64,000 nucleotides of DNA, taken from Hydrococcus rivularis NIES-593 (lineage in GTDB: Bacteria > Cyanobacteriota > Cyanobacteriia > Cyanobacteriales > Microcystaceae). Positions 1,157-21,053 of the stretch are shown here, piece by piece. A program made the position numbers and the translations under genes. Where the stretch lies: the NCBI RefSeq assembly GCF_001904635.1, contig NZ_MRCB01000001.1:62001-126000 (forward strand), in the 5' to 3' direction. The notes beneath the pieces were generated by a model. The model was given only the letters and a program-made list of their open reading frames with translations, was not told the origin of the DNA and made no database searches. Position 1 is the first letter of the stretch; each line of letters opens with the position of its first letter.

Positions 1157-1474
1157 GTGAGTAAAATTTGGTACAAAAATATAGAAGGAGCTATGAAAGA
1201 TATCTTAATGGAAAAACTGTTTAATCAAGCAGTTGAACCAATCTTCCAAGCCAACAATTTAACTAAATATTCAGCACTCAAACAAAGAGAGGATGAATTT
1301 AAATCACTGTTTAATATTGAATTAGCAGAATACGTGGACTCGAAAAGAGGATTTGATTTTTCTCTATTTATTCGTGATTTTTTAAGTGAAGATTGCTTGC
1401 CGTACAGGGATACTATTCAACAAAAATATGGAGAGCGGGCAGCGGATTTGATTGGGGAATTAATTTGTATTTGA
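1157..1474 (+). CDS. Small hypothetical protein
   Basis: A 105-residue frame with a GTG start. An ATG at 1193 would give 93 residues. The GAAGGAG at 1184-1190 is only 2 nt from that ATG, too close for a good ribosome binding site, so the start is undecided. The protein is charged and mostly helical with no membrane segment or known motif. It lies 85 bp after the preceding gene on the same strand and could be co-transcribed with it. Confidence 0.5.
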   Translation: MSKIWYKNIEGAMKDILMEKLFNQAVEPIFQANNLTKYSALKQREDEFKSLFNIELAEYVDSKRGFDFSLFIRDFLSEDCLPYRDTIQQKYGERAADLIGELICI

Positions 1475-1542
1475 AAGCAAAAAAAGTTAGCTGGTAGTTA
1501 GAATTTATGACTATACGGTCAGCGTTCCGTACAAATTTAACA

Positions 1543-2149
1543 CTATGTATCTGTATCTTCCTGACTTAATTGTTGCTCAAACTCAGATATTGAACCTGTA
1601 GTTACTGCTTTTTTTAACAATTGATTCAATAACTCAATATCATATAATTTATTTAATTTTTCTACTAATTCAGTAGAAACATCTTTAAATCGAATTGTTA
1701 GGATTTGAGCAATATATTTCTGGGTAGCTTCTGCTATACCTATGCGTTCTATGCTTGTCATGTATGTCATTTTTTGTTCAGCCTCAAAACGCTCCAATTC
1801 TGCTTTGAAATTTAAGTCTAACTCCGGTGGTAGAGTCATTAATCTATCTAGCAACTGGAAGATTTGCTGGATTTTATCTCTACTATAGCCTAACTCATAC
1901 ATTCGTTTAATTAAGCTCAACTTCCACTGCAATCGGCCTGCTAAATCTTGAGTTGTCGCTTGTGTCCGCAGATGCGCCATCACCAGAACGGCAAAAGGAC
2001 TATCACTTTGTTCTAATTCTGACCAACGAGATTCATAGTCCAGTAGCTTGACAATGGGAAATTGAAGACTAAGGCGACATCAACGCTTCAAAATATTGTT
2101 CTACACCTTCCTTCCAAGCACCATCGTAATCAGCTCGTACTTCACTCAT
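1543..2149 (-). pseudogene. Rpn-family recombination-promoting nuclease/transposase, internally deleted
   Basis: Reading the minus strand from the ATG at 2149 gives MSEVRADYDGAWKEGVEQYF followed by EALMSP and a stop. In another frame RLSLQFPIVKLLDYESRWSE then runs into an intact C-terminal frame of 146 residues (1543-1983). Both parts match the usual start and end of the cyanobacterial Rpn/PD-(D/E)XK putative transposases, which are normally about 300 residues. The central nuclease core of roughly 100 codons is missing, with the junction near 2070-2080 and a frame change there. The remnant should have no nuclease activity. The C-terminal part starting at 1983 could still be translated, but it lacks the catalytic region. 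Confidence 0.8.
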
Positions 2150-2457
2150 AGATTATTTCCAATCAAAATATCATAATGCCCTTTTTGAAAGTTAAATTAC
2201 TTTAAACGACATAAAATTTATGACTAATTTACATAACAACAAATGTTGGTTTAATGTGGAATTTTGTTGCTTGGCTTTTTGAGCGAGAGGTTGCATACTC
2301 AAAGTAGTTTATTCAAAATAAATTAGGAAAATTTTCTTGAGCAATATAGTTGCTGATTTTTTTATTTCATTAATTTATTGATTTTTGTTTACAAATTAAA
2401 ATTTTAGATTGACATTAATCTAACACAACAAAGTTTAGTTACTTTGTAAATAATATT
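2150..2457. other. AT-rich intergenic region before the parA-like genes
   Basis: About 310 bp without a gene. It is strongly AT-rich and presumably carries the promoter of the downstream ParA-like gene and possibly a partition site. No clear iteron, hairpin or operator was seen. Confidence 0.5.
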
Positions 2458-3366
2458 ATGACCAGAAAAAATAAAGAACAACCAGCCATGTCAAACAATA
2501 CTTCCTCCAATACTAATGATAAGCCTCAAAAGCGACTGATAATTATAACAGGTGATAAAGGTGGCGTGGGTAAAAGTACCTTTGCACGAGCAATATTTCA
2601 ACTTTACATTAATAAACATTTACCCTGTGTTGCTTATGAAGCTGACTTGAGAAATCCCCAAATAGAAAGATATTTTCAAAAAGATTACCGCCCTATAATA
2701 CGTTATATTGATATTTTTCATAGAGGTGGTGCTGACGATTTATTAATTAATCTAGATGAGAGTGATTGTCCTATCACATTATTAGACTTACCTGCGCAAT
2801 CTGGAGGTTTCTTTGAAAGTTATGTCAAAGAGCTTGCATTTTTTGAAGTTCTGAAAACTGAAATTAATTGTCGAGTGACAATGGTTTCAGTGATTAGTAG
2901 AGTTCTTGACTCTATCAATGTTTTAGAAAAACTTCGTGAACTTTGTAAAGACCAAGTAGATTATACTGTTGTCAAAAATCTGTTTCATGGTGAAGAAGAA
3001 AAGTTTGAGCGATATAATGACTCTTCCCTACGTCAGAATATGCTTGCAGAAGGTCTAATAGAACTTGTAATGCCAGATTTATTCTACAAGTCTTATGACT
3101 TTCTTGACCGCCATGCTTTAACCTTTAATGAAGGACAGACTCATAAAGAAACAAATATTGTAATTAAGTCAAGAATTAAATCTTGGCTTGCTGAGTTTGA
3201 AGCGCAAATTAAGCCAGCATTTAATTTATTGGGTTTTGATATACAACCAGATGACTGTTACTATCCAGCAGTTGTGGAAAAGTCTAAAGAGCTTAGAGAA
3301 AACGAAGAAAAAGAAAAAGCTAAAAACCAAGATGCAAATTTACCATCTCAAGATATAGCTGCTTAA
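2458..3366 (+). CDS. ParA/MinD-like P-loop ATPase
   Basis: A 302-residue protein with a deviant Walker A motif GDKGGVGKST at residues 32-41, including the signature lysine of the ParA/MinD group. A plausible Walker A'/B segment LLDLPAQSGG follows around residue 105-115. The first 25 residues are hydrophilic, and a second ATG at 2488 is possible. The charged C-terminal tail is Lys/Glu-rich. It is followed 23 bp later by a second divergent ATPase and then a membrane-anchored protein, so the three probably form one operon. The likely role is plasmid segregation or positioning. No ParB-like partner is recognisable nearby, so the exact job is inferred. Confidence 0.75.
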   Translation: MTRKNKEQPAMSNNTSSNTNDKPQKRLIIITGDKGGVGKSTFARAIFQLYINKHLPCVAYEADLRNPQIERYFQKDYRPIIRYIDIFHRGGADDLLINLDESDCPITLLDLPAQSGGFFESYVKELAFFEVLKTEINCRVTMVSVISRVLDSINVLEKLRELCKDQVDYTVVKNLFHGEEEKFERYNDSSLRQNMLAEGLIELVMPDLFYKSYDFLDRHALTFNEGQTHKETNIVIKSRIKSWLAEFEAQIKPAFNLLGFDIQPDDCYYPAVVEKSKELRENEEKEKAKNQDANLPSQDIAA

Positions 3367-3389
3367 TTGAATAGTTTGCTTGGTTGATT

Positions 3390-4196
3390 ATGTTTAAAAA
3401 GCGTTTTGTAATTACATCGGGTGATGCTCGTGTGGGTAAGTCCACAGTTTCTAGGCTCTTGCTGGAATTGTACTTGAAAAGTAATTGCAATGCGCGTGTT
3501 TTCTACCACGGTTATCGTAACAAGCTATCGATGTATAAAACAAAAGGTTTTGAAATAAACCATTTGGGATTGTCTAGGGGTGATTCGGATAGATTATTAC
3601 TAGACTTAGAAATATTTCCAAATATTGATGTAATTTTGACAGATATGCCAGGTCAAAACCATCAGGAGTTCAAGTTTTTTGATAAAGATGTTTCACTGAT
3701 AGGAAATCTTAACCATCTCGGATATCGCGTTACTTTCTTGCACCCGATATCACATCGTAAAGACTGTGTTGAAGATTATCTTGAGGATTTATACCAGCAT
3801 TTTGGTAGTCAAGTTGACTATGTTGTTATCAAAAATTATTACTTTGGCAAGCAATTTCGATACTATGAAGGTAGTAAATTCCAAGCTGATATTAAAAAAT
3901 TAAATGGCTTGGAGCTAGTTTTGGGCGGGTTGCATAACGACTTTTACCAGTTGCTTGAGGATACTGGTTTATCCTATGCTCAACTTATTGAAACTGACTC
4001 CCCTCTTAATACTATTCAGCGTTCTATAGTATTCAACTGGATAGAGAGTTTTAAGAATTCTATTGTTTCTAATGTTATTGCTTCTAATTATTTAGGGCTA
4101 AGTAAGAACTGTACAGAACTAGCTTCTGTAGGTGCAAATCAACAAAATTCTTCCAATTTTGATGTAAATGAAGATATTGAATCTGAAGAATGGTAA
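3390..4196 (+). CDS. Second, divergent ParA-like P-loop ATPase
   Basis: A 269-residue protein starting at ATG 3390; an upstream in-frame TTG at 3384 is less likely. The P-loop GDARVGKST (residues 11-19) resembles that of the upstream ATPase, but the signature lysine of the deviant Walker A is absent (Asp at the aligned position). LTDMPGQNH about residue 85-95 corresponds to the A' segment. Overall layout (LFxG...Y...VDYVVIKN) parallels the upstream gene, so it looks like an old duplication that diverged. It may act with the first ATPase as a heteromeric pair or have become a regulatory paralogue. Confidence 0.7.
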   Translation: MFKKRFVITSGDARVGKSTVSRLLLELYLKSNCNARVFYHGYRNKLSMYKTKGFEINHLGLSRGDSDRLLLDLEIFPNIDVILTDMPGQNHQEFKFFDKDVSLIGNLNHLGYRVTFLHPISHRKDCVEDYLEDLYQHFGSQVDYVVIKNYYFGKQFRYYEGSKFQADIKKLNGLELVLGGLHNDFYQLLEDTGLSYAQLIETDSPLNTIQRSIVFNWIESFKNSIVSNVIASNYLGLSKNCTELASVGANQQNSSNFDVNEDIESEEW

Positions 4197-4248
4197 GTAC
4201 TTTACCAAAATTGACAGTGAGGTTTTAAATTAACTGTTTAAACAACCT

Positions 4249-4869
4249 ATGACCAATATTGCAAAAGTTGTTGAAAAAGTTATTGCAGAATATTCTGAAG
4301 AAAAGAAAGCAGAGGTCACTGATTGGATACTTAAATTAGGTGTTCGACCTGATGACCCCTTGTTTAACCTATATGCCGAACTAGGTACAACCCAATTTGC
4401 GTTGCAGCAGCTACCTGGTAGGCTTGACTCGCTTGTCGTGGGTTGGACTGACATGGTGGATGATAAGTTAAATAGTGCTTCTAAGGTGGCAATACAACAA
4501 CAAAAAAGTGCGATCGCCCAAGCCGCTAAGGATTTAATTAAGATGACTAAGCAAGCTGGTGGGGCATTGCCTCTCTTGGGCGTAAGTAATTGGCGATTGG
4601 CACAAGTAGCGGGAGTGTTGGGTTTTGTACTGGCTTTGGGATCTGCAATTGGTGTTTTTACATACAAAACTATTGCTGAAAGTGTAACTTTTCAGCAGGC
4701 GGTTTCAGGAACTGCTATTTTACAACCTGAAGATAAAAAGCTTCTCGATTGGGCTAAATCCAATGAAGGTAAGGTAGCACGTAGTATTTATGTTAGAAAC
4801 GCTGCCATCATTAAAACTTGCCGTCAGCAGAAGAAGTATTCAGGTGGCTGCATAATTGCAGTTGATTAA
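4249..4869 (+). CDS. Single-pass membrane protein, DUF6753-like
   Basis: A 206-residue protein. The N-terminal 110 residues are helical and probably coiled-coil (LPGRLDSLVVGWTDMVDDKL). One hydrophobic membrane segment lies near residues 120-142, followed by an extracytoplasmic or soluble tail of about 60 residues with two cysteines. The arrangement resembles a cyanobacterial plasmid family that I believe is annotated DUF6753; that assignment is from memory. It follows the two ParA-like ATPases by 52 bp and may be their membrane anchor. Its stop lies 4 bp from the stop of the convergent LuxR-type gene. Confidence 0.65.
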   Translation: MTNIAKVVEKVIAEYSEEKKAEVTDWILKLGVRPDDPLFNLYAELGTTQFALQQLPGRLDSLVVGWTDMVDDKLNSASKVAIQQQKSAIAQAAKDLIKMTKQAGGALPLLGVSNWRLAQVAGVLGFVLALGSAIGVFTYKTIAESVTFQQAVSGTAILQPEDKKLLDWAKSNEGKVARSIYVRNAAIIKTCRQQKKYSGGCIIAVD

Positions 4870-4873
4870 TTTT

Positions 4874-5662
4874 CTAGGCAACCCAGCCTTTGTATCCCTT
4901 ATTACTTGTTTTAGCTGTATCCTTTTGACTATTTTGGTTGGTTTTGACTTTGGTGTGGGTTGCTTGAGTAACTTCTTCTTCGATTTTCATATCTGCAAAG
5001 CTGAGGATTCCCAGGCGGATAGCTTCCCGGATAGCGTTTAATCTATCTTTGACTCCTAACTTGATAAATGAATTATGTAAATATGACCTGACTGTACCTT
5101 CGGAAACATACATGACATTAGCAATTTCATTATTTTTCATGCCACCAGCTGCTAATTTGAGAACTGTAATTTCTTTATTAGAGAAACCACTTAACAAATC
5201 TAGTGAATTTCTATCGGCTGTGTCATTTGACCTAAGATTATCAATCAAAATGCGATTAATAGTTGGGTCAATCCATGATTCGTTATTGTATGCAGCCATT
5301 ACTGCTTCAATGAATCTTTCTCCTACTTCTTCTCTGGCGTTATTTTTACAGTAGTAGCAGTCTGCGCCATTACTAATTGCTGCGTTAATGGTATCTCGAC
5401 TGCTATTTGCAGTCATAACAACTATTTTAATTGACGTGTGCTTACATTTAATTAAACTTATGAGATCAGTGCCATTGATATCAGGTAAATCAATATTTAT
5501 CACCACGATATCTGGCTTTTGTTGGTCAACAATTTCTATTCCTTCTTTTCCGGATTTCGCAAGGCCACATACCTGGATTTTACCAGTTTCAGATAATATC
5601 GTCGCCGCACCAACCCTAGATATGTTCTCATTTTCAATGATGACAACATTAATAGGTTTCAT
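4874..5662 (-). CDS. NarL/LuxR-type regulator with degenerate receiver
   Basis: A 262-residue protein with an N-terminal receiver domain (residues 1-125) and a LuxR-type helix-turn-helix (about 160-225: FSNKEITVLKLAAGGMKNNE then IANVMYVSEGTVRSYL). In the receiver the phospho-acceptor position is Asn56 in PDIVVINIDLP; NarL has Asp in PDLILLD. The acidic pair near residue 10 is E-N rather than D-D, while the Thr and Lys switch residues are kept. It is therefore probably not controlled by aspartyl phosphorylation. The C-terminal 40 residues are a polar Lys/Thr/Gln tail. No kinase gene is adjacent. Confidence 0.85.
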   Translation of the reverse strand: MKPINVVIIENENISRVGAATILSETGKIQVCGLAKSGKEGIEIVDQQKPDIVVINIDLPDINGTDLISLIKCKHTSIKIVVMTANSSRDTINAAISNGADCYYCKNNAREEVGERFIEAVMAAYNNESWIDPTINRILIDNLRSNDTADRNSLDLLSGFSNKEITVLKLAAGGMKNNEIANVMYVSEGTVRSYLHNSFIKLGVKDRLNAIREAIRLGILSFADMKIEEEVTQATHTKVKTNQNSQKDTAKTSNKGYKGWVA

Positions 5663-5918
5663 ATTACATACTGTTTGGTTTAGTATTATCCCTGATAATA
5701 ATACTTATAGCACCTAGTTTTTACTGTTTCTTAATCTTTACAGTTACTATAAATTAATCAGCTTATTTAAAAACTTTATTTTTAATTTTAAAAAATTTAC
5801 AAAGTGATTGGATGGTTTGTGTAGTTTTCATTAAGCAATCTATTTACTAGGCAATTTTATTGATCAGTTTTAGTTTTAATAGTATTTATCAAACTTAGGG
5901 AGTAATAAACGATTTTTT

Positions 5919-6164
5919 ATGAATTTAAATCAACTTTTAGGATGGATAGAAAATATTATTGTTTGGTCTTTAATAGGAATGCTATGTTTGGTCGGGTTAG
6001 GCAGATTACCTGTTAACCCGACAAGTTTGTTTGACTTTACTGCGTCTTTTTACTATTTTTCTGTTGCGGTTGTTATTTGCCCCAAAACTCCCTTGAGTTT
6101 TAATAACAAGCTAGTTTTGGGGTTTATAGCTTTTTCGTATGGTGTGTGTTTTGGGTTGATTTAA
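5919..6164 (+). CDS. Small membrane protein
   Basis: 81 residues with three likely hydrophobic segments (about 10-27, 40-56 and 63-80). No family is recognised. It is preceded by about 250 bp of AT-rich DNA and ends 2 bp before the stop of the convergent 256-residue gene. No clear Shine-Dalgarno sequence is visible (taggga is distant), so expression is uncertain. Confidence 0.5.
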   Translation: MNLNQLLGWIENIIVWSLIGMLCLVGLGRLPVNPTSLFDFTASFYYFSVAVVICPKTPLSFNNKLVLGFIAFSYGVCFGLI

Positions 6165-6165
6165 T

Positions 6166-6936
6166 TTAATCTGTCTCTTGAACAGCATCCTGGTTTTTGA
6201 ATTGTTGTTGGTTCTGTTCGCAGCGTGCTTGTTGCTCATCGAACAGAGCCTTAAACCGTTCAAATTCATTATGGGTAAGGTTATTGATGATGATAGAGTA
6301 ATTCTCTGAGCTATTATTACGAGATGCTAGAAGTGCTTCTTGACTTGCTTCTGAATCAGGCGAATTTCTATCAAGGCTAAGAATTTGTGAATCTTCTTCT
6401 AATTTTAGACTTGCAGTATATGTCTCACTTTTATAAATGATACTTTCTGTCTCTTTGTCTGGTTTTCCAAATATATTTAAGCGGTCTAAAATTACAGGAA
6501 TAACAAATTGTTGAATTTGGAAATTAGCGATAATAGATTGTACTTGATCGTGTTGATCTTCTTCTACGAGGTTGCCGTTATTGTCGTCATTTTTATCTGT
6601 AAAGTTTTTTAGAATATCTGGTTCAATTGTATTGTCTTTAGACTGGCTTACTTCGGGTTGTAAAGATGACTCTGGACTAACTGGATTAACAAAATTGACA
6701 GTTTCAATTTCTGTGGAGCTTAACTTTACTTCTTCTTGTGCTATTTCACTGATTCTATTTATTTCTGAATTTAACTTTAACACAGCCTCTTGTCGTTCCT
6801 CAGCAGTTGGAGGATTTTTTGCATATTCTGCAAATTTTTCATCAGGTATATTAAGCTGTGCAATCAATTCTCTAAGGAGACAAGCTTGCATTGCTGGAGT
6901 TAAACCTTCTACTGGAAAATCGATTAGTTCTTTCAT
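6166..6936 (-). CDS. Acidic hypothetical protein, partner of the giant gene
   Basis: 256 residues, rich in Glu, Asp, Asn and Gln, with a short ordered N-terminus (FPVEGLTPAMQACLLRELIA) and long low-complexity middle and end. No membrane segment or catalytic motif is seen. It starts 7 bp after the stop of the 2,583-residue gene on the same strand, so the two are almost certainly one transcript. The composition suggests a flexible adaptor or chaperone-like accessory, but no function can be assigned from sequence. Confidence 0.7.
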   Translation of the reverse strand: MKELIDFPVEGLTPAMQACLLRELIAQLNIPDEKFAEYAKNPPTAEERQEAVLKLNSEINRISEIAQEEVKLSSTEIETVNFVNPVSPESSLQPEVSQSKDNTIEPDILKNFTDKNDDNNGNLVEEDQHDQVQSIIANFQIQQFVIPVILDRLNIFGKPDKETESIIYKSETYTASLKLEEDSQILSLDRNSPDSEASQEALLASRNNSSENYSIIINNLTHNEFERFKALFDEQQARCEQNQQQFKNQDAVQETD

Positions 6937-6943
6937 AGTAAAA

Positions 6944-9900
6944 TTACCTTTCTACTAAATCTTTTTTGACATCTTTGAGTGCATTATTGATGCGATCGCT
7001 CATAACTTTAAAATCTTGTAATGTTTCATCACTGATGTTACTTACTTGAGTTTTTCCTTGTTTGACATATAACAAGATATTATCCTTTTTATCTTTAACT
7101 AGATAAGTTTGGTTTTGAGTGTGAGTAGCAATCTGATATTTTTCTGTTTGGACTGACATAATGCCATTAATATCTTCTTGTCCAATTGTCTTAACTACAC
7201 GTTGAGCAAGACTGGTCATCTCATTAACTTTTTCTAATTCTTTAATATCTTGTTCCATTGCCTTAAAAGCATTCTCAAGACTAATATTTTCTTGAATATA
7301 TAAATTAGTTATCTCTTGAATTCTATTGAGATATGTGTCTGATTGACCGAGTTTTTCAGCTGCTATATACCAGTCTTGGAGATTTTGCACTGTATTAGCT
7401 TTCATGCGCTCGATAATGCTATCCATCGCTCCAACCAGCTGCATATTGGATTGAGCAAGTGATGCGAGTGCTTGGTTAATATTTGGTTGTTGGCTTTGTT
7501 GTGATGAAAAAATGCTTTTGTTTTTAGCAATTAATGAGTTATCTGATACTTGTGTATTAGCAGAAATAGAATTACTACTAATTTTGGTGTTTTCTATATG
7601 ATTAAATACAGCATATCCTTGGGAAGTTTGTTCTACTTTGTACCCTTTTTCTTGAAGATAATTTTGAACTAATTGGTCAGTTCCTTGTGCGTTTCCAACT
7701 ATAAAAGAGCTTTTCGCTGCTATTGCTTTATCAAGTAAGGGTTTATAGTGATTTTCAAATGTTTGGGCAATTTGCTCACTTGTTACTCCACGCCACGGGC
7801 CAGATCCGGACACCATAATGATGTCTTCTTTTGAGTAATTTCCTGTGTTGGCGCGTTCCCCCCATACTTGTTCGTAATTTCGTGTGCTTGAAGGTGTACC
7901 AGGGGGTGCAGCTGATTTACCGATAAACTGGGTAGCTATTTGGGCCATCGCAATGTCTTTTTTCATGTGTTCAGCGACGGCGGCGTTTATAGGTTCGAGT
8001 TGGGACAGTGGATTTGTAGGCCGCAGAGCAGTCTGTTGGGACTTGTCCTGCTGGGTTTGTACTGTAGTTTGTTGTGTTTTTGCAACTACATATATATACG
8101 CTTTGCTAAGGGCTTGAATAAATGCCGATTCTTTACCCTTACCCTGCCACTGTTGATCCTGGGCATTAGTAATGCTTGTACAGTTCTCTAACCAATTGAC
8201 TCCCCCGCGTTTGGCGATCGCCTCAGTTAGCCGGGGATGTTGTTCGAGTTTAGCCTGAAGCACTTCTACCATTAGCTGGTATTCATCAACTGATGGATAC
8301 AACTGCTTTTGATGATTAAATGCGTGTTCGGCGGATGCGTATGCTACCCCTTGAGGTTTTTGGACATGGGTTTCTACTCCATACTGCCCGGCGGGGGCTT
8401 CTGGATTATTATTGACTGAAACTTGGTAATCGTTTTGCAGGTTGCCTTGTTCTTTGGCGAGTACAGTGGCAAGACTTAGTGCTACTCCCAGCCCGTCTTT
8501 AGAGTCGGGGCTGATATTTACTGGAGTTGCAGGCTGTTTTTGGATGCTTGGGAACGGAACAATTTTGCCATTGACATAATCTCCTAGTGGCTCCATGAAT
8601 AAGCCATATACTTGACTCTTACTCGCTTGAGTTTGGGTAAGTTCTTTTGGTGAATGCTTCTCCCATCTCGCCCAGGCTTGCTGGTAACTTGGGTCTTGAA
8701 TCATTTGGGTGGTAATTTTGTATTGTTTACCCACCCGAAACGCAACTTGCTCGCCGTTTTTACCTTGGGCGATCGCAATATCTCCCTCTTTGATCCCATA
8801 AGTTTTTTGGTAGTCTACACCTCTGGTAGTATGTATCCTACCGTGTCCGCGCATAGCATCGATGGTTGTATCAACTGGTACTGTGGCAGCTTCGCCGTGC
8901 AGATGCAGCGAATAAACCATCGGTACTGGTTTGCCAGATATAGTTGGGTTGTCTGGAATCTGAGGATTAGCAGCGCGTGCCGCAGTGGAATTGCCAATGG
9001 CGATAATTTCTTCGACAGTTGGTTGGTTTGAAGGGTGTGAGGGTATGTTTTGGGTGACTTCTCTGAGGCTGGTATAACTGCGCTCTACTTTTATTTCTCC
9101 CCCTGGTGTCCATTCGTTAGCTTTAATGGTCAGGTCGTTGTTGCTTTGGACTACCGCACGCGGAGGTTGGTTTGAAGCGAGGAAGTTCTCAAATTTCTGG
9201 CGAACGCTGTTTTCTCTGCCCAGATCATTTTTAATTGACCAGATGTTGATAGACCATCTGCCAGCCTCAGTATTCAGTGCAGCGTGTTCGTTCTTGCAGT
9301 TAAAGCGGGTTACTGTACCTGACTCAAGTTTAAACTCTTGGTATGGTGCGTCCTGATTCTCTTCCCTAGTCCATGCCATTCGTTCCTTAGCAGCGCGATA
9401 GCCCCAGTCAGAATTTCCGATATTGATGCTGCGGGCCTCCGTCGCGGCGTAGGAGTCATCGCGGTGGTAGTTAATGCCAGCGCCGGGGTTCTCGGAATAA
9501 GTTACCAGCACAATATCAGCGTCGGGATATACTTGTTTGACAAGTTCCATTAGCTTGTCGTCCTGTACCCCTGGCTTGAAATCTTTATCCTTCAAATCCC
9601 ATTTTGCACCGACCCATGCGACTTGTCTCAGTGGTGCATAGTTAGATTTGTCATTTTCAAGTATGGGTTTGAGGTGGGTTTCAAGATGCGATCGCAATTG
9701 TTCTACTTTTTCCTCGCTTACCTTACCCAATATTTCGATAGCTTTAGTTGGATCGGCTTGACGCGAGTTGGGTAGTAATATTGGTTGATTCTTAGCTTCT
9801 GGTTGTGTATCCGTTAATACTTGTATCTCAACTGCGTTTTGATAGACTTGTGAAATTCCTGCAAATGTGGCGTTAGTATTTAATTGAATATTAGTTGTAT

Positions 9901-12900
9901 TCTTTTCAGATAAAGCTTTAGCAGGAACAATTGGTACTGGATAATCTTCTTGATTGAGTTCTTTTGGACGGTTGGGAAGTGCTTTTAGAGCTTTTTGGTA
10001 ATCACTATTTTCTGGAATATGGTTTAATTTTAAAAGACTACCTTCAGTTGTAACTTTTTCATTTAACTCTGTAATAAGCTGTTCGTAGCGGTCAAAACCA
10101 TCAACTTCACCAATATTAATAGGTTCTCCAAGTAAACTATTAAATTCTTTCTTAATTTCCTCACTAATTTCATTTTTATTAAAAATAAATGTAGCTGTGT
10201 TACTCTCAATAAAATAATCGTTTTCAGTAGATTTTGATTCTAACCAAGTGGCTACAAAGATTGCGTCTTGTGCAGGAACTACTAATCCAAAAGCTTCTTT
10301 AGTTTCTGTCTGCGTTCCATCGGGGGAAGTATATTGTTGATTTGGATTATAAAAATATACAGTTTGTTGGGGAATGATTGGAGTCGGTTGTGACGGTGTG
10401 TCTGCACTTTTGATATGACCACCAGCACGGTTAATAAAGGTTTGTCTTAATTCGCTACTGATAGTAGTTTCATCAAGTACGAATACGGTCATTCCTTTTT
10501 TGGCTTCTAACCGAGCTTGTGATATAGGAAGCTGTTCGTATGATACTCCTATTTTTTCGAGATACTTTTTGGTTTTTTCGGTTATATTTTCATCAACTGC
10601 TAATCCTAAAAGCCCGACTAATTTTTGTTCTTTATCTTGAAACATGATTGTAGGGCGTTCGTTAATTTTACCGAGTATTTGGTTGCGTTTTTCCTGCTGC
10701 TCGGTTATGACAGTCTTTTCATTACTTATAAGCTGGCTGCGTTTAACCCATTTGTCAGGATACTGTACTGTTTCTGGATCAATAGTTATTTTACACGTAC
10801 TTTCATTACTGGTAATCTGTACAGGGATAGTGGTTCGTTGTTGGTTTGGGCGAATAATACCCGTATCAATTAATTTTTGTACAGTGCTAGTTTCTTTCCT
10901 TTGCCACTGTTTTTGTACATTCCCTTTATTTAAATCAGCTTCGAGACGTTCATTATGCTGACCAATAATACCGAGTGATTGGTCACCAATTTTAGCAATA
11001 TAAACGTGCTTTTTATCAAATGCCCTAACTAAAGTTTCTTGAAATACTTGGTTGTTAATTTCCTGTTTTTTGTACTTTGGATTCGTAATATTAATTCGTA
11101 ACAGATTATTCTGAGATGTCTCTGCTATAGCATAGGCATTTTGTCCAGTGATGATAGTTTGAATTTTAAGATGTAACTGTTGCCCATTCCCAGGCTTTTC
11201 TGCTAGCCAGCCTTGAACAATACCTTCTTTGATTGATTCTTTATCAATATTGCCTAGTTTTTCAGGTTTATTCCCATTTTGAAGATAAATAGTATAGTCT
11301 TCCCGAATCAGGTCAACCTTTTCGATTGTTAACATTACAGGTTCATTATTAAACCTTTGGGAATTTCCAAACTTATTAACTTCGCCTACTTTGAAAGTGA
11401 GTTCTGGTAATCCGGGTACTTTGGTTGTAACAGAGGTGGTATATACTTCACCTCTTTCAACACTGCCAATAGCAATAGTACCAATTGGTAGCCGGGCATT
11501 ACTTTGTTCAATATTTCCAAATGTTTTGTAACTACCCTCTTGATTCTGGATTTCAATTACACTTTTTCCATCTTCAGCTAGATTAAATCGAATACTCTGA
11601 GGTTGATTTTTATTAAAAAACTCACTATTCCGGTCAAATCCAGTGATACTAAACTCGGTAAACTTGAGTGTATCTAACTGACTGATAATCTCTTGAGGAA
11701 AGGCAGCAAAGGCGAAATTAGAAACTTTATTTTGGCGATCGCTACTTTTATCATTACTATTCTCACGAGTAGTTGATACCGCCCAGGTGGCAGCTGCCAT
11801 TGCCAGCTTTTGGTCGTCTGGAATCGAATTATAAAAGCCCTCTGCTATCTGGTAAGCTCTTTGGTAAAGAAGTTTAATTTGACCTTCGCTTAGTTCAGGC
11901 TGGAATGATATTTTGTTAGATTTTATTTCTTGTCCAAGCGTAATTCCTATCTCTTCGAGTTTATTTTCTTGCTCCCTCGCCAGTGTTCCTAATTTTCTAA
12001 ACTTGGGTTTACCATTCTCAGTTTCATCGTTAATTTGAGCATAAACTAAATATTTATGCGGACGGTTATTGTTGCGTTTATCTTCGGATATTTCTGATAG
12101 TTTTATCGTAATTGTATTAGCTTTCCAGATAAATTCATTATCATACTGTATAATATTAGTTATACTTAATTGATTACCATTAGCAAGAGTAATATTTGCG
12201 GACGACCCTTTTTCAGTTTCTTTTTGTTTAGATAGCTCACTCGCTCGGTTGAATGATTTGTCGAATTCTTTTTTGATGAGCGTAGCTCTTAATCGCTGTT
12301 CGTGAGAAAATTCAACCCCTTTAAATAAAGCTTGAAATTGAACGATCTCACGCGATTCGAGACGAGCTTTTTTAAAATACTGATTGGTTTGAGCAATTAG
12401 TAACTCAACAGGTGAATATCCCGTCGGTTGAATTATATTGTCAATATAAACATCTTTCTTCTTATCCTTAATATAGTTGACTTCACGGTGAAGAATCCGA
12501 CTATTGCTGCGAATAATTTCAATTTCAGGTTTTTTGGCACTTTTGAAAAGGTCAACTGCAATTTGATTTTGAAATGCTGCCTCGGCAATCATTTCACGGT
12601 ACATTTGGGTATTAATGTTCATCGCCACTAGTGTATTGGTGGGTTCTTGCCCAACAGTTTTGATGAACTCTTCCATGTAACTGCGATACTTGCTTGGAAT
12701 TTCCTTCCCTTCAATACCCTTGGATTTTGCCCAGGCTTCTGTTTTGAATAAATCTTCGTAGTGTTTGGCTACCTGCTGTACGTATTCAATTTGGTCTTTC
12801 TCGCTACCAAAGCTTTTCAGAATCGTAATTTCTGACTCTAACGCCTCAATTGCGGTAAGGTGATTGTTGATAACACCCACACTAATGCCATCGCTCATGT

Positions 12901-14695
12901 GGATGGCGATTTCCTCAAATTCTGGCTGACTGCCATCTTTTTGGTAAAAAGATTGTTTTTTAAGTTTGACAGTTGGAGCGTAGGCGTTTTCAGGAAGGTT
13001 GCGCTCTTTTGCTTCGATGGTTAGGTTGGGATACTTGCTTGCCCGCTCGAAGCCGATACAATCACCATCGTAATCGCGTGCTTGACGCTCTTGTTCGGAC
13101 TCTTGAGGAAGAATTTCTAATTCATAACCAGCTGATTTTAGTTCTAAAATATACTGATTAAATTTGTTAGTAAACTCGATTTTATCTTGAGTTTCCAGCT
13201 TACTAATATTTTGGTCTAAGTAATTTTCAATACCTTCTAATCGAAGATTTTTTCCTTGAGCTTCTGGCAGGATAGATTTAATTTGCTCATTAAGACGGTT
13301 GTAAATGCGATCGCTTGTTTCGTCCGAGACAGCGATCGCACCAACGAGAGGTTGACCATCAGGCCCAAGGATATCTTCTACAATTTTGTTAGTTGAGACG
13401 CACAGACCATTTGAGTTGAGGAAAGGGGAGCGGAAGTTGAGAACTTCTTCGTCATCTTGATAATGCGGTATGGAAATTTCCCCATTTTGCAAGTCTTTGG
13501 AGGGAATGACCATTGCTCGCTCAAATGTGAGCGTCTTGCCGATGGCGATTTCTTTCCACTCGTTTTGGACGAACCGGGCGAGTTCGCGCTGTACTTTCTC
13601 AGTTTCGAGAAGTTGCCCCTCTCCTTGCAGGTCAGCTTTGATGAGTTTGTAAATAAACGAGTCAGTAGCAATGCGATCTGCGCTTCGCAGCAGCGCTTCG
13701 CTATCGCGCAAAGTTTCTAACTCTTCTGCTACTGTTGGATCTTCTGCTGCTTGTTCTTCAAGAAAGGCTTTCCGTTTCTCGTATTTTTCGCAGTAAAGTT
13801 GTGCAAGTTGCCGAGGATCATCCTGTGCTTCTTTAAGCTTTTTGGCTTCAAGTTCTAGCTGTTCAGTAAAGTCTTTCAGTCCGTTAGGGAATGAAGCGAG
13901 TAACTGCGATATAGCTGTCTTGCCGAGTTCAGATTGTGATTTTTCACCTAGCCAGATATTTTGTCGGTACAATCCAGGTTGAATTTGAGGCTTAGTCGGG
14001 CCATTAGGATTATCTTTATCAGTTCCCTTGAACGCAGATAAGGGAAGAATGAGGTCAATTTTAGTTGAGTTATTAGGGTCTTGATAATTCAGGATTTGCT
14101 CAAGGTTAGCAGGGCGTAGTGTACCTTTACCAAAGCGGTATTTGTTATCATCTCCGTCTCGATCAGTCCAACCGAAGCGGTGCTGAATTACTCGATATTT
14201 ATCACCTTTTTGATGCTTGGTTAATTCGTGATACAGTTCTTTTGATATTTGTCCGTAACAGTCTCCTGTTAGCCGATATGCTTGGTCATTACTGATAATG
14301 TCGCCATTTTCACCATTATTATCATCAACTATTAGGATGTTTAACTCTTTATTGACAGCATTTCTACATGAACCAAGAAAAATAGACCCGTAAGCACCTC
14401 TATCTTTGTTATCAGGGCATAATTGCCTAATTGTATCTAGGCATTCTTCGGGGCCATATAATAACCGAGTTTTTGACGATAATAATAATTTATGACCTTT
14501 AGGATGATTAGTTAATTGTTCCACAGTAGACTTTTCGTCCATATGCCCGAACGAAAAGTTTATCCCATGAAAGAAATGTTCTAATAGAGTATTATTAAGT
14601 TCTTCCTTTAACAGCGAATCTGGATTATTTGTATTACCATCTGTATGAATCCATTGATTTAATCTAGTGTCAAAATGTTTAGCTTGAATTGTCAT
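6944..14695 (-). CDS. Giant multidomain protein: RNA-polymerase-like DPBB motif, AlkB-like, NADAR-like and SLOG-like regions
   Basis: 2,583 residues, no signal peptide. DYDGD at residues 541-545 (bases 13061-13075) matches the DbDGD metal-binding motif of two-barrel RNA polymerases. It is preceded by NFRSPFLNSNG (about 418-429), comparable to the RNP-containing strand before the motif in eukaryotic RDR enzymes. It is followed by ISVGVINNHLTA (about 600-612), comparable to their LGxIxNxH segment. Around residues 1700-1820 there is an AlkB-like 2-oxoglutarate/Fe(II) oxygenase with H1744xD1746, distal H1804 and R1813. About 2060-2200 resembles NADAR (SAEHAFNHQK ... WQGKG). About 2290-2375 resembles SLOG (VSGSGPWRGV ... 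VGNAQGTDQL). The last 130 residues are probably coiled-coil. The stretch from about 700 to 1690 is unassigned. Domain calls are by eye; the AlkB motif is the most certain and NADAR the least. Confidence 0.8.
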   Translation of the reverse strand: MTIQAKHFDTRLNQWIHTDGNTNNPDSLLKEELNNTLLEHFFHGINFSFGHMDEKSTVEQLTNHPKGHKLLLSSKTRLLYGPEECLDTIRQLCPDNKDRGAYGSIFLGSCRNAVNKELNILIVDDNNGENGDIISNDQAYRLTGDCYGQISKELYHELTKHQKGDKYRVIQHRFGWTDRDGDDNKYRFGKGTLRPANLEQILNYQDPNNSTKIDLILPLSAFKGTDKDNPNGPTKPQIQPGLYRQNIWLGEKSQSELGKTAISQLLASFPNGLKDFTEQLELEAKKLKEAQDDPRQLAQLYCEKYEKRKAFLEEQAAEDPTVAEELETLRDSEALLRSADRIATDSFIYKLIKADLQGEGQLLETEKVQRELARFVQNEWKEIAIGKTLTFERAMVIPSKDLQNGEISIPHYQDDEEVLNFRSPFLNSNGLCVSTNKIVEDILGPDGQPLVGAIAVSDETSDRIYNRLNEQIKSILPEAQGKNLRLEGIENYLDQNISKLETQDKIEFTNKFNQYILELKSAGYELEILPQESEQERQARDYDGDCIGFERASKYPNLTIEAKERNLPENAYAPTVKLKKQSFYQKDGSQPEFEEIAIHMSDGISVGVINNHLTAIEALESEITILKSFGSEKDQIEYVQQVAKHYEDLFKTEAWAKSKGIEGKEIPSKYRSYMEEFIKTVGQEPTNTLVAMNINTQMYREMIAEAAFQNQIAVDLFKSAKKPEIEIIRSNSRILHREVNYIKDKKKDVYIDNIIQPTGYSPVELLIAQTNQYFKKARLESREIVQFQALFKGVEFSHEQRLRATLIKKEFDKSFNRASELSKQKETEKGSSANITLANGNQLSITNIIQYDNEFIWKANTITIKLSEISEDKRNNNRPHKYLVYAQINDETENGKPKFRKLGTLAREQENKLEEIGITLGQEIKSNKISFQPELSEGQIKLLYQRAYQIAEGFYNSIPDDQKLAMAAATWAVSTTRENSNDKSSDRQNKVSNFAFAAFPQEIISQLDTLKFTEFSITGFDRNSEFFNKNQPQSIRFNLAEDGKSVIEIQNQEGSYKTFGNIEQSNARLPIGTIAIGSVERGEVYTTSVTTKVPGLPELTFKVGEVNKFGNSQRFNNEPVMLTIEKVDLIREDYTIYLQNGNKPEKLGNIDKESIKEGIVQGWLAEKPGNGQQLHLKIQTIITGQNAYAIAETSQNNLLRINITNPKYKKQEINNQVFQETLVRAFDKKHVYIAKIGDQSLGIIGQHNERLEADLNKGNVQKQWQRKETSTVQKLIDTGIIRPNQQRTTIPVQITSNESTCKITIDPETVQYPDKWVKRSQLISNEKTVITEQQEKRNQILGKINERPTIMFQDKEQKLVGLLGLAVDENITEKTKKYLEKIGVSYEQLPISQARLEAKKGMTVFVLDETTISSELRQTFINRAGGHIKSADTPSQPTPIIPQQTVYFYNPNQQYTSPDGTQTETKEAFGLVVPAQDAIFVATWLESKSTENDYFIESNTATFIFNKNEISEEIKKEFNSLLGEPINIGEVDGFDRYEQLITELNEKVTTEGSLLKLNHIPENSDYQKALKALPNRPKELNQEDYPVPIVPAKALSEKNTTNIQLNTNATFAGISQVYQNAVEIQVLTDTQPEAKNQPILLPNSRQADPTKAIEILGKVSEEKVEQLRSHLETHLKPILENDKSNYAPLRQVAWVGAKWDLKDKDFKPGVQDDKLMELVKQVYPDADIVLVTYSENPGAGINYHRDDSYAATEARSINIGNSDWGYRAAKERMAWTREENQDAPYQEFKLESGTVTRFNCKNEHAALNTEAGRWSINIWSIKNDLGRENSVRQKFENFLASNQPPRAVVQSNNDLTIKANEWTPGGEIKVERSYTSLREVTQNIPSHPSNQPTVEEIIAIGNSTAARAANPQIPDNPTISGKPVPMVYSLHLHGEAATVPVDTTIDAMRGHGRIHTTRGVDYQKTYGIKEGDIAIAQGKNGEQVAFRVGKQYKITTQMIQDPSYQQAWARWEKHSPKELTQTQASKSQVYGLFMEPLGDYVNGKIVPFPSIQKQPATPVNISPDSKDGLGVALSLATVLAKEQGNLQNDYQVSVNNNPEAPAGQYGVETHVQKPQGVAYASAEHAFNHQKQLYPSVDEYQLMVEVLQAKLEQHPRLTEAIAKRGGVNWLENCTSITNAQDQQWQGKGKESAFIQALSKAYIYVVAKTQQTTVQTQQDKSQQTALRPTNPLSQLEPINAAVAEHMKKDIAMAQIATQFIGKSAAPPGTPSSTRNYEQVWGERANTGNYSKEDIIMVSGSGPWRGVTSEQIAQTFENHYKPLLDKAIAAKSSFIVGNAQGTDQLVQNYLQEKGYKVEQTSQGYAVFNHIENTKISSNSISANTQVSDNSLIAKNKSIFSSQQSQQPNINQALASLAQSNMQLVGAMDSIIERMKANTVQNLQDWYIAAEKLGQSDTYLNRIQEITNLYIQENISLENAFKAMEQDIKELEKVNEMTSLAQRVVKTIGQEDINGIMSVQTEKYQIATHTQNQTYLVKDKKDNILLYVKQGKTQVSNISDETLQDFKVMSDRINNALKDVKKDLVER

Positions 14696-16024: not shown

Positions 16025-16702
16025 TTAGTCGATGGATATAATTTCATCGATGTTGAAAACTTCAACTGTAGCATTTGGACTGTTCATATCTGTAGTTTGT
16101 TCGAGTAGACGTGTTGCTTCCTCAAGCAATGCGCTTGCGTTCTGAAGCAGTGTTCGCACCTGGGTTAACTTGTTTCGCCGTTCGATACCAAGTTGTGCTT
16201 CTATATACCGCGCATCATTATGATGGCTGAGGTGAATTACCCGTACTTGTTGTTCTTTCTCTGAAGGTGCAAATATTGCGTTTTCGGCAGTTAGTTTATA
16301 GTATGAGTACGTACCACTGGGGCGTTTAACATTGTAGATGTGGAGTTCGCAACTAGGTGGTGCAATGTACTGTCCGTCGAAGTTAGTAAGTCTAGTACGA
16401 ATATTATCTAATGTGGTGGCGATCGCCTCGACGGCAGAGACAATACCTAATGATTCTGGTGATTGTGGGCAACCGCGCCTCATCAGCATCATAATGGCGG
16501 CAGAACGGCGAGTCAGGCGAATTTGTTCTTGATACTGGCGCATTTGTTCTTCCCGGATACGAACAAGTTCGAGTTCTTCATCAGGGGTTAGTTCAACCGC
16601 ACTCCCACAAATTTTGTAATTTAAGCAGTCGCCAGGATCTATGCTTGGGTGCTGCATCATACTGGCACAGTCAAATCCAAGTCCACATTTTTTCTTGGGC
16701 AT
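16025..16702 (-). CDS. Cys-containing hypothetical protein beside the palindrome
   Basis: 225 residues. The N-terminus contains four cysteines in about 27 residues (CGLGFDC ... DCLNYKIC), which could bind metal, followed by a long charged helix (EELELVRIREEQMRQYQEQI) and a C-terminal helical coiled region. No family is recognised. Its start lies 13 bp from the 42-bp palindrome at 16715-16756, which also precedes the divergent small gene. An autoregulatory DNA-binding role is possible but unproven. Confidence 0.65.
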   Translation of the reverse strand: MPKKKCGLGFDCASMMQHPSIDPGDCLNYKICGSAVELTPDEELELVRIREEQMRQYQEQIRLTRRSAAIMMLMRRGCPQSPESLGIVSAVEAIATTLDNIRTRLTNFDGQYIAPPSCELHIYNVKRPSGTYSYYKLTAENAIFAPSEKEQQVRVIHLSHHNDARYIEAQLGIERRNKLTQVRTLLQNASALLEEATRLLEQTTDMNSPNATVEVFNIDEIISID

Positions 16703-17144: not shown

Positions 17145-18683
17145 TCAGTAGATTAAATTCTCTCTAGTAGCAGGTTTACTACGCTCAATACCTCTTTGCG
17201 ATCGCTGTTGATTGATTAATGCTTGTTGGGTAAAGAAACGTAAACTTTCAATCTGCTCAATTTCGTTTGTGGTTAGTCGAGTTGGTATCTCTTCGTACCA
17301 GTTTCCCTGACTGTAGCAGGTTTGCATCACAGGAGTATTATCCCCATGACGGTAAACACTCAGAGTATTGCTATCTAAGCTGGCACTCAACTCCCGTCCT
17401 TTGATACGGAAGTTATTGGTAACAAGCATATAGTCAGTGATTATAGAAGGCAAATGTTTGAGAGTAGAAGGCAGAAGGTTAAGAGAAGGAGGAACAGGGG
17501 AAGATTGCTCTTCTAGGAATTGTTTAGCAGTAAGACCATTTTCTTCTGAAATATCCTGTTGTGGGTACTGTTTTTGGGGATGCGGCTGAACTTTTTTCTT
17601 AGTGTTATTTGCTTCCGAAGTGGGGTTATCTTCTGATTTGGGTTGTATTATCGAAATCTCATCTAGATAATCACTGTTTAGTATATATGTACTAATAAAT
17701 TTTTTGGAGTTACTATCGGTATCGCCATTGCTATCACTTGTACTGCTGTTAGTAGCTTTACTGATATAAAAGGACTCTTTGTTACTTGTGCTGTTAGTAT
17801 TGATGCGGTTAATTGCTCTGGCTTTAGCTTGTTGAATTACTTCTTTATCTTTATCTGGATCATACATTATTCCATATTCAGACCGCAGTTTGTTCCAGCT
17901 ATAAGGTTTGTATACTTGATAACCTGCAATTTTGACATCATTATGAATGTAGGTAAAGCCTAGTAGTTCTTCCCCCTGCATCTTAGGCAATACTCCAATG
18001 TTATTTTCCTCCAGGCGTTCAATGAACGTAGAAACGGTGGGACTATCCTTAATGGCTTCTCCTATTGCTTGGCGAATAATTTCCTTACTTGTTGGGGTTT
18101 TGTGCTTACTGTTGACTGCTCTAATACTTTTTGATCGGTTGGGGCTGGTAAGTGTAATTATTCCGTACTCTTGCTCTAACTTAGAGGCCACAGCTTCATT
18201 TGTTGTTGGAGTTACTTCCAATCCTAGTTCCGCCGCGATGCGTCTAGTTGAGACTTGGGAGTTGAAATAATCATAGGAATCATTAACTAAGCTGCCATCT
18301 AACCGAATACGGGAGGCGATTATGTGCAGGTGTTCGTGGTTGCGATCGTGGTGGCGTACTGCAACAAACTGACTGGTAGCTGCTACAGATGATTCTTCTT
18401 TGGGCAAGTATCCCATATCCTTGAGATATTCTCTTGCTACATAACTGTACTGACTGTTGGATAAATGCTCGTGGTAGTTCGGGCGGTGTGCGATCGAGAT
18501 GATGAGGTGAGCGCACTGCCGTTTAACTGCTTTGTTGGTGTACTTGATGGTGAGAAACTGCTGGTTAAATTCGTCTGGCTTTGTTCCCATCATATTAGTA
18601 TCGACAATTGCAGCATCATCTTTGCCCAAGACATACTTGAGCGTGTCGAGAAAATTGGGTTTTTTGTAGATGACGGGAATCAA
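17145..18683 (-). CDS. MobA/VirD2-like relaxase
   Basis: 512 residues. The N-terminal 200 residues are the relaxase domain. The metal-binding three-histidine region is HHDRNHEHLH at residues 111-120, preceded by the HLIISIAHRP strand at 59-68. Tyr70, Tyr79 and Tyr81 are candidates for the nicking tyrosine. The C-terminal half is long, Ser/Asn-rich and poorly ordered, ending in a short conserved-looking segment around residues 410-460. This layout fits the MOBP-type mobilisation relaxases. It lies 42 bp after a MobC-like gene and nicks oriT to start conjugal transfer. No type IV secretion genes are visible, so the plasmid is probably mobilisable rather than self-transmissible. Confidence 0.85.
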   Translation of the reverse strand: MIPVIYKKPNFLDTLKYVLGKDDAAIVDTNMMGTKPDEFNQQFLTIKYTNKAVKRQCAHLIISIAHRPNYHEHLSNSQYSYVAREYLKDMGYLPKEESSVAATSQFVAVRHHDRNHEHLHIIASRIRLDGSLVNDSYDYFNSQVSTRRIAAELGLEVTPTTNEAVASKLEQEYGIITLTSPNRSKSIRAVNSKHKTPTSKEIIRQAIGEAIKDSPTVSTFIERLEENNIGVLPKMQGEELLGFTYIHNDVKIAGYQVYKPYSWNKLRSEYGIMYDPDKDKEVIQQAKARAINRINTNSTSNKESFYISKATNSSTSDSNGDTDSNSKKFISTYILNSDYLDEISIIQPKSEDNPTSEANNTKKKVQPHPQKQYPQQDISEENGLTAKQFLEEQSSPVPPSLNLLPSTLKHLPSIITDYMLVTNNFRIKGRELSASLDSNTLSVYRHGDNTPVMQTCYSQGNWYEEIPTRLTTNEIEQIESLRFFTQQALINQQRSQRGIERSKPATRENLIY

Positions 18684-20177: not shown

Positions 20178-21053
20178 AGGGATTATGGGGAATGGCTGTT
20201 AAGTATTAGAGAAAAGCGTATTCTTTGCCTTCGCTTATGCTACTTACGTAATTCCCTCCCTTGTCCTGTTTGTTGTTGTGGGCAATATTTTCTAGAGTGC
20301 GATGGCTACACCCGCAGCAGGCATCGCGTCAGGCACTGTTGCTACCAAGTGCTTTGCATTTCCTCACAAGGTGCATTTAGAAGGAGTTTTTGCCCAAGCG
20401 CCTGTATTACTCAAAGGTTTTAATGAAACCATGTTAACCATATATTTAGTCAGAGCTTGTGGTCGAATGCATTAACAGTATTTGACCGGACTGGAGAGGC
20501 GATCGCATTCTAACTCCGGCGGTGCAATTGCCTTCATGATATTTCATTTGTAAAAGTTGTAATCAACAATTTTGCAGCAAAGCAAATTTGTAATAAACCC
20601 CATTCGACATACCTTGTTATTTTATTAGACTGCTCAATTGTGGTGCTTTTAGTGAGGTAAGTGTGGGGATGATTGAGGTAATACTGGGTGCAATAATTAC
20701 AATTACATGGCTTATTTGATAAGCCAAAGACTAACTTCATTTTCTAATTCAACTTTTAGTTGATACAGAATTAGGGTGTGATTGGGGTAATTTGTTCATG
20801 ATACAGGACGTAATTTAACCAGCGTGTGTTGAAGAAATTTTTAATACATTAATTTACTTAGAATCTACAGTTTCGGTTTGGTATTAGTGTTATAGAAGAT
20901 ATAGAAGAAAATGAGCGGAATAATTTTTTCTCTACTTACTTTGTATGTAAAAAACCTGTTAACCCCTGTAAAGAAAGTGTTTTGCACTACAGCATTATTC
21001 CTATTTCAGTTAAATTAGTAACAATAGTAAAAATTAATAAAACATCAATATAT
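20178..21053. other. Long intergenic region upstream of parM
   Basis: Nearly 880 bp without a credible gene. It contains the second CCCCATT...CATACCTTGTT repeat (20598-20618) and another ATTGGGGTAATT (about 20782). A parC-like centromere would be expected here if parM is partnered, but no regular iteron array was found. A 68-codon minus-strand frame at 20534-20740 overlaps the repeat and is not convincing. Confidence 0.4.

Follow-up and report, generated by a model that had tools for sequence, protein, structure and literature searches.

The giant gene and its plasmid neighbourhood

The window, which is the whole 64,000-nt stretch of DNA that we analyzed (Hydrococcus rivularis NIES-593, NZ_MRCB01000001.1, positions 62,001 to 126,000), contains at 6944-14695 on the minus strand a real open reading frame that starts with ATG and encodes a protein of 2583 aa. 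A preliminary description of this DNA had reported a 2,583-residue frame with DYDGD at residues 541-545, and both are correct; the segments that it placed on either side of the motif are also present, NFRSPFLNSNG at residues 420-430 and GVINNHL at residues 607-613. The whole 2583-aa protein gave no usable match in Pfam, NCBIfam, or PHROGs. The gene and its neighbours are listed here in window coordinates.

6166-6936, minus strand: 256-aa gene, 7 nt downstream of the giant gene and probably co-transcribed with it; the same order is annotated in AP018310
6944-14695, minus strand: whole gene for the 2583-aa multidomain protein, matched over its full length on ten plasmids at 86-97% identity
15497-15853, minus strand: 118-aa upstream gene, a conserved neighbour in 7 loci
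16025-16702, minus strand: 225-aa upstream gene, a conserved neighbour in 11 loci
17145-18683, minus strand: MobA/VirD2-type relaxase, upstream on the same strand (PF03432, E = 1.6e-21)
20982-22298, plus strand: ParM/actin-like plasmid partition protein (weak PF17989 match; orthologue ParM/StbA in NC_007412)

The same gene order is found on plasmids of Aulosira laxa NIES-50 and Trichormus variabilis ATCC 29413, and these closest plasmids are typed as conjugative, with MOBP and MPF_T. Of the 59 family loci with at least 4.5 kb of upstream sequence, which are related by descent and are not 59 independent cases, 43 carry, at most 5 kb upstream, either a ParM-like gene or a relaxase (relaxases of two types occur), and a relaxase is present in 29; ParM is commoner than relaxase in the shorter clade. 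This relaxase linkage may reflect only the order of genes on a plasmid backbone. Four other members have a conserved, divergently transcribed gene of ~180-200 aa directly upstream of the polymerase (L002 2371-2976, L003 2395-2970, L004 2419-2949, and L005 2429-2962), and the window lacks this gene. Elsewhere on the same contig, at window positions 25424-46588, there is a metal-handling cluster with a heavy-metal P-type ATPase, an RND pump and adaptor, cupredoxin-like proteins, MFS transporters, and a sensor kinase.

Conserved motifs and predicted structure of the polymerase-like core

The features that bear on a polymerase core are given below in their order along the protein chain.

12236-14695, minus strand: constant polymerase core, residues 1-820, common to all members, among them proteins of 924-1368 aa that stand alone
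13856-14368, minus strand: putative first double-psi barrel region, residues ~110-280, placed by the lysine motifs with K190 (KGT) and K223 (SxxKG)
14126-14128, minus strand: codon of Lys190, invariant by conservation
14027-14029, minus strand: codon of Lys223, invariant by conservation
12836-13537, minus strand: predicted second double-psi barrel region, residues ~387-620, from an AF2 model with Foldseek and VIA-align matches
13424-13432, minus strand: RSP motif, residues 422-424, with R422 and P424 invariant; aligned to RSP of YonO
13061-13075, minus strand: DYDGD catalytic-loop motif, residues 541-545, by its invariance; aligned to D-DGD of YonO
12863-12877, minus strand: GVINN motif, residues 607-611, with G607 invariant; aligned with IGEYSN of YonO
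12536-12556, minus strand: VDLFKSA motif, residues 714-720, with D715 and K718 invariant; compare IDFAK of YonO and VDQSKQG of QDE-1

The DYDGD pentapeptide by itself would be weak evidence for a polymerase because the window protein has a second D.DGD sequence, DRDGD, at residue 178. We therefore place weight on conservation, for which we used 17 diverse relatives that are 23-61% identical to the window protein. K190-G191-T192, S220, K223-G224, R422, P424, and N436 are invariant in 17/17, as are D541, D543, G544, D545, P556, K580, G607, Q711, D715, and K718, and the motifs follow one another along the chain in the order KG, SxxK, RSP, DxDGD, GxxN, DxxK. In the cyanobacterial-plasmid relatives, D[YF]DGD, K190, K223, RSP, VGxxN, and VDxxK are invariant or nearly so down to ~23% identity; in members L013-L015, the loop reads P.DAE.YHQADFDGDQ. 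Because of this conservation, we judge that DYDGD at residue 541 is not a chance occurrence. The preliminary description had raised the prospect that DYDGD would prove to be non-conserved in homologues, which the invariant Asp triad and G544 contradict, and it had looked for a conserved Lys pair, which K190 and K223 supply upstream on the same chain with a putative role in barrel one. The dN/dS ratio is 0.08-0.17 in the core and is low in every module, and thus the whole protein is under purifying selection. One member of 924 aa, on plasmid pLBX of Leptolyngbya boryana (L012 7479-10253), has NFGGD in place of DFDGD, so that two of three catalytic Asp are gone, and we take this to be a natural inactive or repurposed copy.

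Directly before DYDGD, residues 482-537 (window 13085-13252) form a clade-specific insert that many relatives do not have, and this insert gives a weak match to SUKH_5 (E 0.001-0.015) that is under the cut-off of that family. In an AF2 model of residues 352-737 (mean pLDDT 72.8), strands flank the insert on both sides, and strands also follow DYDGD. The alignment for this model contained the window protein, 49 family rows, and 16 YonO-like rows, and because of the YonO rows, the barrel-two model supports the fold but is not independent proof of it. The top PDB matches of the model in Foldseek are the largest subunits of RNAP (Pol IV, Pol II, archaeal, and Synechocystis beta-prime), with a probability that is mostly >0.75 but with a best E of only 5e-3. 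VIA-align gave Z of 8-9, with 3.1 A over ~102 residues to ASFV RNAP, and it gave Z of 8.1 over 184 residues at 6.4 A to QDE-1 (2j7n). Because Z of ~8 is near background level, the weight of these comparisons lies in the match list being almost wholly RNAPs. An AF2 model of residues 1-1150, made with 49 sequences (the window protein and its Nostocales relatives), had a pLDDT of ~25-35 in both barrel regions, which we count neither for nor against the fold. The second AF2 run was limited to 352-737 because, in longer mixed crops, MAFFT did not align the first barrel of one family correctly with that of the other. The structure prediction proposed in the preliminary description thus bears out barrel two, as an RNAP- and QDE-1-like fold with YonO rows helping, but did not yield the fold of barrel one, which we place from its lysine motifs.

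Profile comparisons link this core to YonO. With hhalign, a 14-member family profile (A1) matched five YonO-like proteins with a probability of 91.7 and an E of 7.9e-7, and RSP, D-DGD, and VGxxN are in register in that alignment. E-values from hhalign with -glob or with deep profiles are uncalibrated, and misleading levels were reached by shuffled or reversed controls, so for the deeper comparison we used raw scores against shuffles instead. When 43 family sequences were compared with 14 YonO-like sequences, the raw score was 193.5, against 135.6 +/- 2.1 (maximum 140.6) for 60 column shuffles, a z of ~27. A shallow profile of Nostocales sequences only (A4) gave no significant match to YonO. 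SxxK aligns with SQFK of YonO in a forced global profile alignment, and identity between the family and YonO is only ~18-24% over the DPBB2 region. The same family profile scored 135.7 against cyanobacterial RpoC1, where shuffles scored 137.2 +/- 2.7 and the RpoC1 profile was shallow.

The eukaryotic RdRP family is reached from two sides. The Pfam RdRP family PF05183 has matches in L013-L015 where DxDGD lies, with the full-length members L014 and L015 exceeding the curated cut-off, and it matches 7/17 members of alignment A6 (best E 9.4e-7); a PF05183 scan gave five matches in 194 cyanobacterial genomes and 0 in 14 control genomes. The window protein itself has no PF05183 match and is below detection, and a profile of L013-L015 finds it in its own genome with an E of 6.7e-16. 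A YonO profile searched against the PDB has cellular RdRPs as its sole matches, and in QDE-1, aligned through that profile, DGVG, KG, RSP, GGDYDGD, LG..TN, and VDQSK follow one another as the motifs of the family do. When family profiles A1, A3, and A6 were themselves searched against PDB sequences, no RNAP was matched. On sequence evidence, the YonO/RDR link is stronger than the link to beta-prime, and the preference for RDR and YonO over beta-prime in the preliminary description is supported by the motif set, by PF05183 in relatives, by the YonO profile against shuffles, and by the predicted second barrel. We are highly confident that the core is a single-chain homologue of the two-barrel polymerases and belongs to the YonO/RDR group.

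Exchangeable modules and spread of the family

Beyond the core, the protein is made of the following parts.

10946-12208, minus strand: post-core region, residues 830-1250, with no known fold, present in most members at 25-58% identity
9206-9778, minus strand: 2OG-Fe(II) oxygenase (AlkB)-like module, residues 1640-1830 (Pfam 2OG-FeII_Oxy E 0.13, weak)
8651-8923, minus strand: putative ASCH/PUA-like module, residues 1925-2015, named by eye and shared in 24 members
8081-8488, minus strand: NADAR-like module, residues 2070-2205 (PF08719 E 0.019, below the cut-off), in 20 members
7580-7828, minus strand: putative SLOG/DUF2493-like nucleotide-binding module, residues 2290-2372, named by its motifs GSGPWRG and GNAQGTD, in 17 members
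6947-7438, minus strand: conserved C-terminal tail, residues 2420-2583, in 45 family members

Several of these names we infer from motifs and weak scores. The AlkB-like module has the HxD...H...R pattern at H1744, D1746, H1804, and R1813, and the pattern is kept in 8/8 module-bearing members; the ASCH/PUA-like module (residues 1925-2015) gave no library match. The core is constant among members and the post-core region nearly so, and a variable cassette sits between the post-core region and the C-terminal tail, in which modules are absent, present, or reordered; for example, SLOG comes before ASCH in a Pseudanabaena member (L008). In a member on plasmid pP742402 of Gloeothece citriformis (L006 3878-12295), an RNase H at residues 2188-2316 (PF00075, E = 2.5e-37) is fused to the core, which places an enzyme of RNA:DNA hybrids and a predicted RNA polymerase in one polypeptide. 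The phage matches of the window protein are to the AlkB-like module only, and Nodularia phage vB_NpeS-2AV2 has an unannotated stand-alone protein (L222 2528-3118) that is 31% identical to this module.

In a tblastn search, the protein matched 77 plasmid records, nearly all of them to relatives, and ten matches span the whole protein at 86-97% identity; four of the 77 records, from Variovorax, match the NADAR-like part only. These last are plasmids of ~0.8 Mb from linuron-contaminated soil (LR594690, LR594667, LR594672, and LR594660), with a distant relative of the NADAR-like module at ~33%. Many of the large cyanobacterial plasmids that carry the family are conjugative; by typing, 32 of the 77 plasmid records are non-mobilizable. 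A query with the polymerase region finds more distant plasmid proteins of ~900-1300 aa. A match was found in 28/386 whole cyanobacterial genomes, and 202 confirmed relatives came out of 84,980 scanned prokaryote genomes; the 80 of these that were retained are all cyanobacterial. Three scans of viral contigs with the family gave no phage homologue of the core. Plasmids and cells can carry several different family copies: one genome (G408) has 12 matched places, and one Pseudanabaena plasmid (L008) has two family members a few genes apart, at 1251-6140 and from 7858 onward.

The preliminary description held that a single-chain polymerase within a far larger protein on a cyanobacterial plasmid would be unusual. 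The gene is no lone oddity, being matched on 77 plasmid records, and YonO-like proteins in cyanobacterial genomes were already mentioned in 2017 (PMC5467207). Between the window gene and the Nostocales copies L048 and L050, dS is ~0.13, whereas synonymous sites of rpoC1 are saturated between these hosts (pS ~0.8), and within the host's own family, no copy in another genome exceeds 45% identity. From the low dS of the gene against saturated rpoC1, together with the distant copies in the host's own family, we conclude that there was recent plasmid transfer between families, a contaminant contig being the less likely explanation.

Known systems and the proposed role

YonO of Bacillus phage SPbeta, like the window protein, belongs to a mobile element and has on one chain KG, SxxK, RSP, DxDGD, (I/V)GxxxN, and DxxK in the same order; unlike the window protein, it has 839 aa, no appended enzyme modules, and a phage late-gene context. 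Eukaryotic RdRPs (QDE-1, RDR2; PF05183) resemble the family in that members match PF05183 and QDE-1 also has DYDGD in the same order, but the window protein comes from a bacterial plasmid gene, has different flanking domains, and had no silencing partner in our search of the host genome for Piwi/Argonaute domains. RpoC1 (beta-prime) shares the DxDGD loop and, on the model, the barrel-two fold, but the family profile scores against it at shuffle level; moreover, the Lys and Asp motifs of the window protein are on one chain, whereas multi-subunit RNAP divides its barrels between the beta and beta-prime subunits. Mobile elements also have a branch of two-barrel RNAPs, the NCGL1702-like proteins, which was mentioned in 2021 (PMC7824862).

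The polyvalent proteins (PMC5512222) are likewise very large and multidomain, with shuffled enzyme modules on mobile elements, and some hold an RNAP or primase; their RNAP is T7-fold and N4-like, whereas that of the present family would be two-barrel. In that survey, Toprim or PrimPol primases are the enzymes of conjugative elements and an N4-like RNAP occurs in phages only, few of the proteins are in cyanobacteria, and no AlkB, NADAR, SLOG, or double-psi domain is mentioned (PMC5512222). The present family has shuffled modules on a mobile element in a context of transfer genes (relaxase or ParM-like, MOBP, MPF_T). Pfam over the whole window protein gave no ArdC-N, MPTase, Toprim/PrimPol, or N4-RNAP match, and the likely modules of the protein are also below Pfam detection. 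The literature searched, with key older papers outside its coverage, contained no description of these plasmid proteins as a family, of their great length, or of their exchanged modules, and no biochemically characterised bacterial single-chain two-barrel member besides YonO. What is known is thus a YonO-type polymerase, and what appears to be new is a set of giant plasmid proteins with exchangeable enzyme modules.

Our best overall explanation, for which we find belief and doubt evenly balanced, is that a YonO/RDR polymerase core serves plasmid transfer or establishment. The core itself is probably an active polymerase. The catalytic Mg would sit at DYDGD (541-545) in barrel two, K190 and K223, contributed by barrel one, would stabilise the nucleotide being added, and the core would synthesise RNA from plasmid DNA in the way that YonO transcribes phage DNA; incoming plasmid DNA would be transcribed or primed, and the appended modules would protect or process DNA. 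That the protein acts at plasmid transfer or establishment seems to us slightly more doubtful than probable, and we propose it because of the relaxase neighbour on conjugative plasmids and the fused, exchangeable modules of repair and conflict types. In a more specific form, which we consider unlikely, the protein would represent a third type of polymerase carried by conjugative elements: the two-barrel polymerase would be made or delivered with the transferring strand and would transcribe or prime ssDNA in the recipient, while dealkylation, NAD/ADP-ribose-type, and RNase H modules would counter host responses and process products.

It is also possible, if rather doubtful, that the protein is a plasmid-borne DNA-dependent RNAP that transcribes certain genes of the plasmid in the cell where it resides and plays no particular role in transfer, and that its modules act on transcripts or DNA. 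The homology to YonO favours such a role, given that YonO of SPbeta is the DNA-dependent RNAP of one gene cluster and that its 3D>3N mutant is inactive (PMC5467207), but resident-cell transcription alone does not explain the fused modules and the neighbourhood of mobility genes. That neighbourhood also speaks against an RNA-dependent RNA polymerase that defends against phages or competing plasmids by a process like RNA silencing, as do the DNA dependence of YonO, the nearest characterised relative (PMC5467207), and the lack of any Piwi/Argonaute domain in the host genome. Relatives do match the eukaryotic RdRP family, which would suit a silencing role.

NADAR- and SLOG-like modules, of the kind found here, also occur in conflict systems, but nothing in the analysis points to the defence that the preliminary description had listed, beside transcription and priming, as one possible role, and we regard the silencing role as quite improbable. 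The barrel-like core could instead have lost polymerase activity and become a nucleic-acid-binding scaffold for the modules, as L012 without two of three Asp might suggest; this is very improbable for the family, in which the Asp triad and the Lys pair otherwise do not vary and purifying selection is strong. Finally, DYDGD could be a chance motif or another Asp loop (e.g., Ca-binding) with no relationship to polymerases, and the second D.DGD at residue 178 is what such a reading would draw on, but with the whole motif set conserved, PF05183 matches in relatives, a YonO profile score far above shuffles, and the structure matches, it is scarcely tenable and has been largely refuted.

Single-chain two-barrel polymerases connect cellular transcription with eukaryotic RNA silencing, and we find here a large family of such predicted proteins in cyanobacterial plasmids, from multicellular hosts and others, with plasmid C of Trichormus variabilis ATCC 29413 as one example. 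A two-barrel polymerase in a conjugative position, if true, would be new; until now, this niche has belonged to Toprim or PrimPol primases. The family offers a concrete, expressible polymerase candidate with which to ask whether plasmids supply an RNA polymerase of their own when they transfer or become established.
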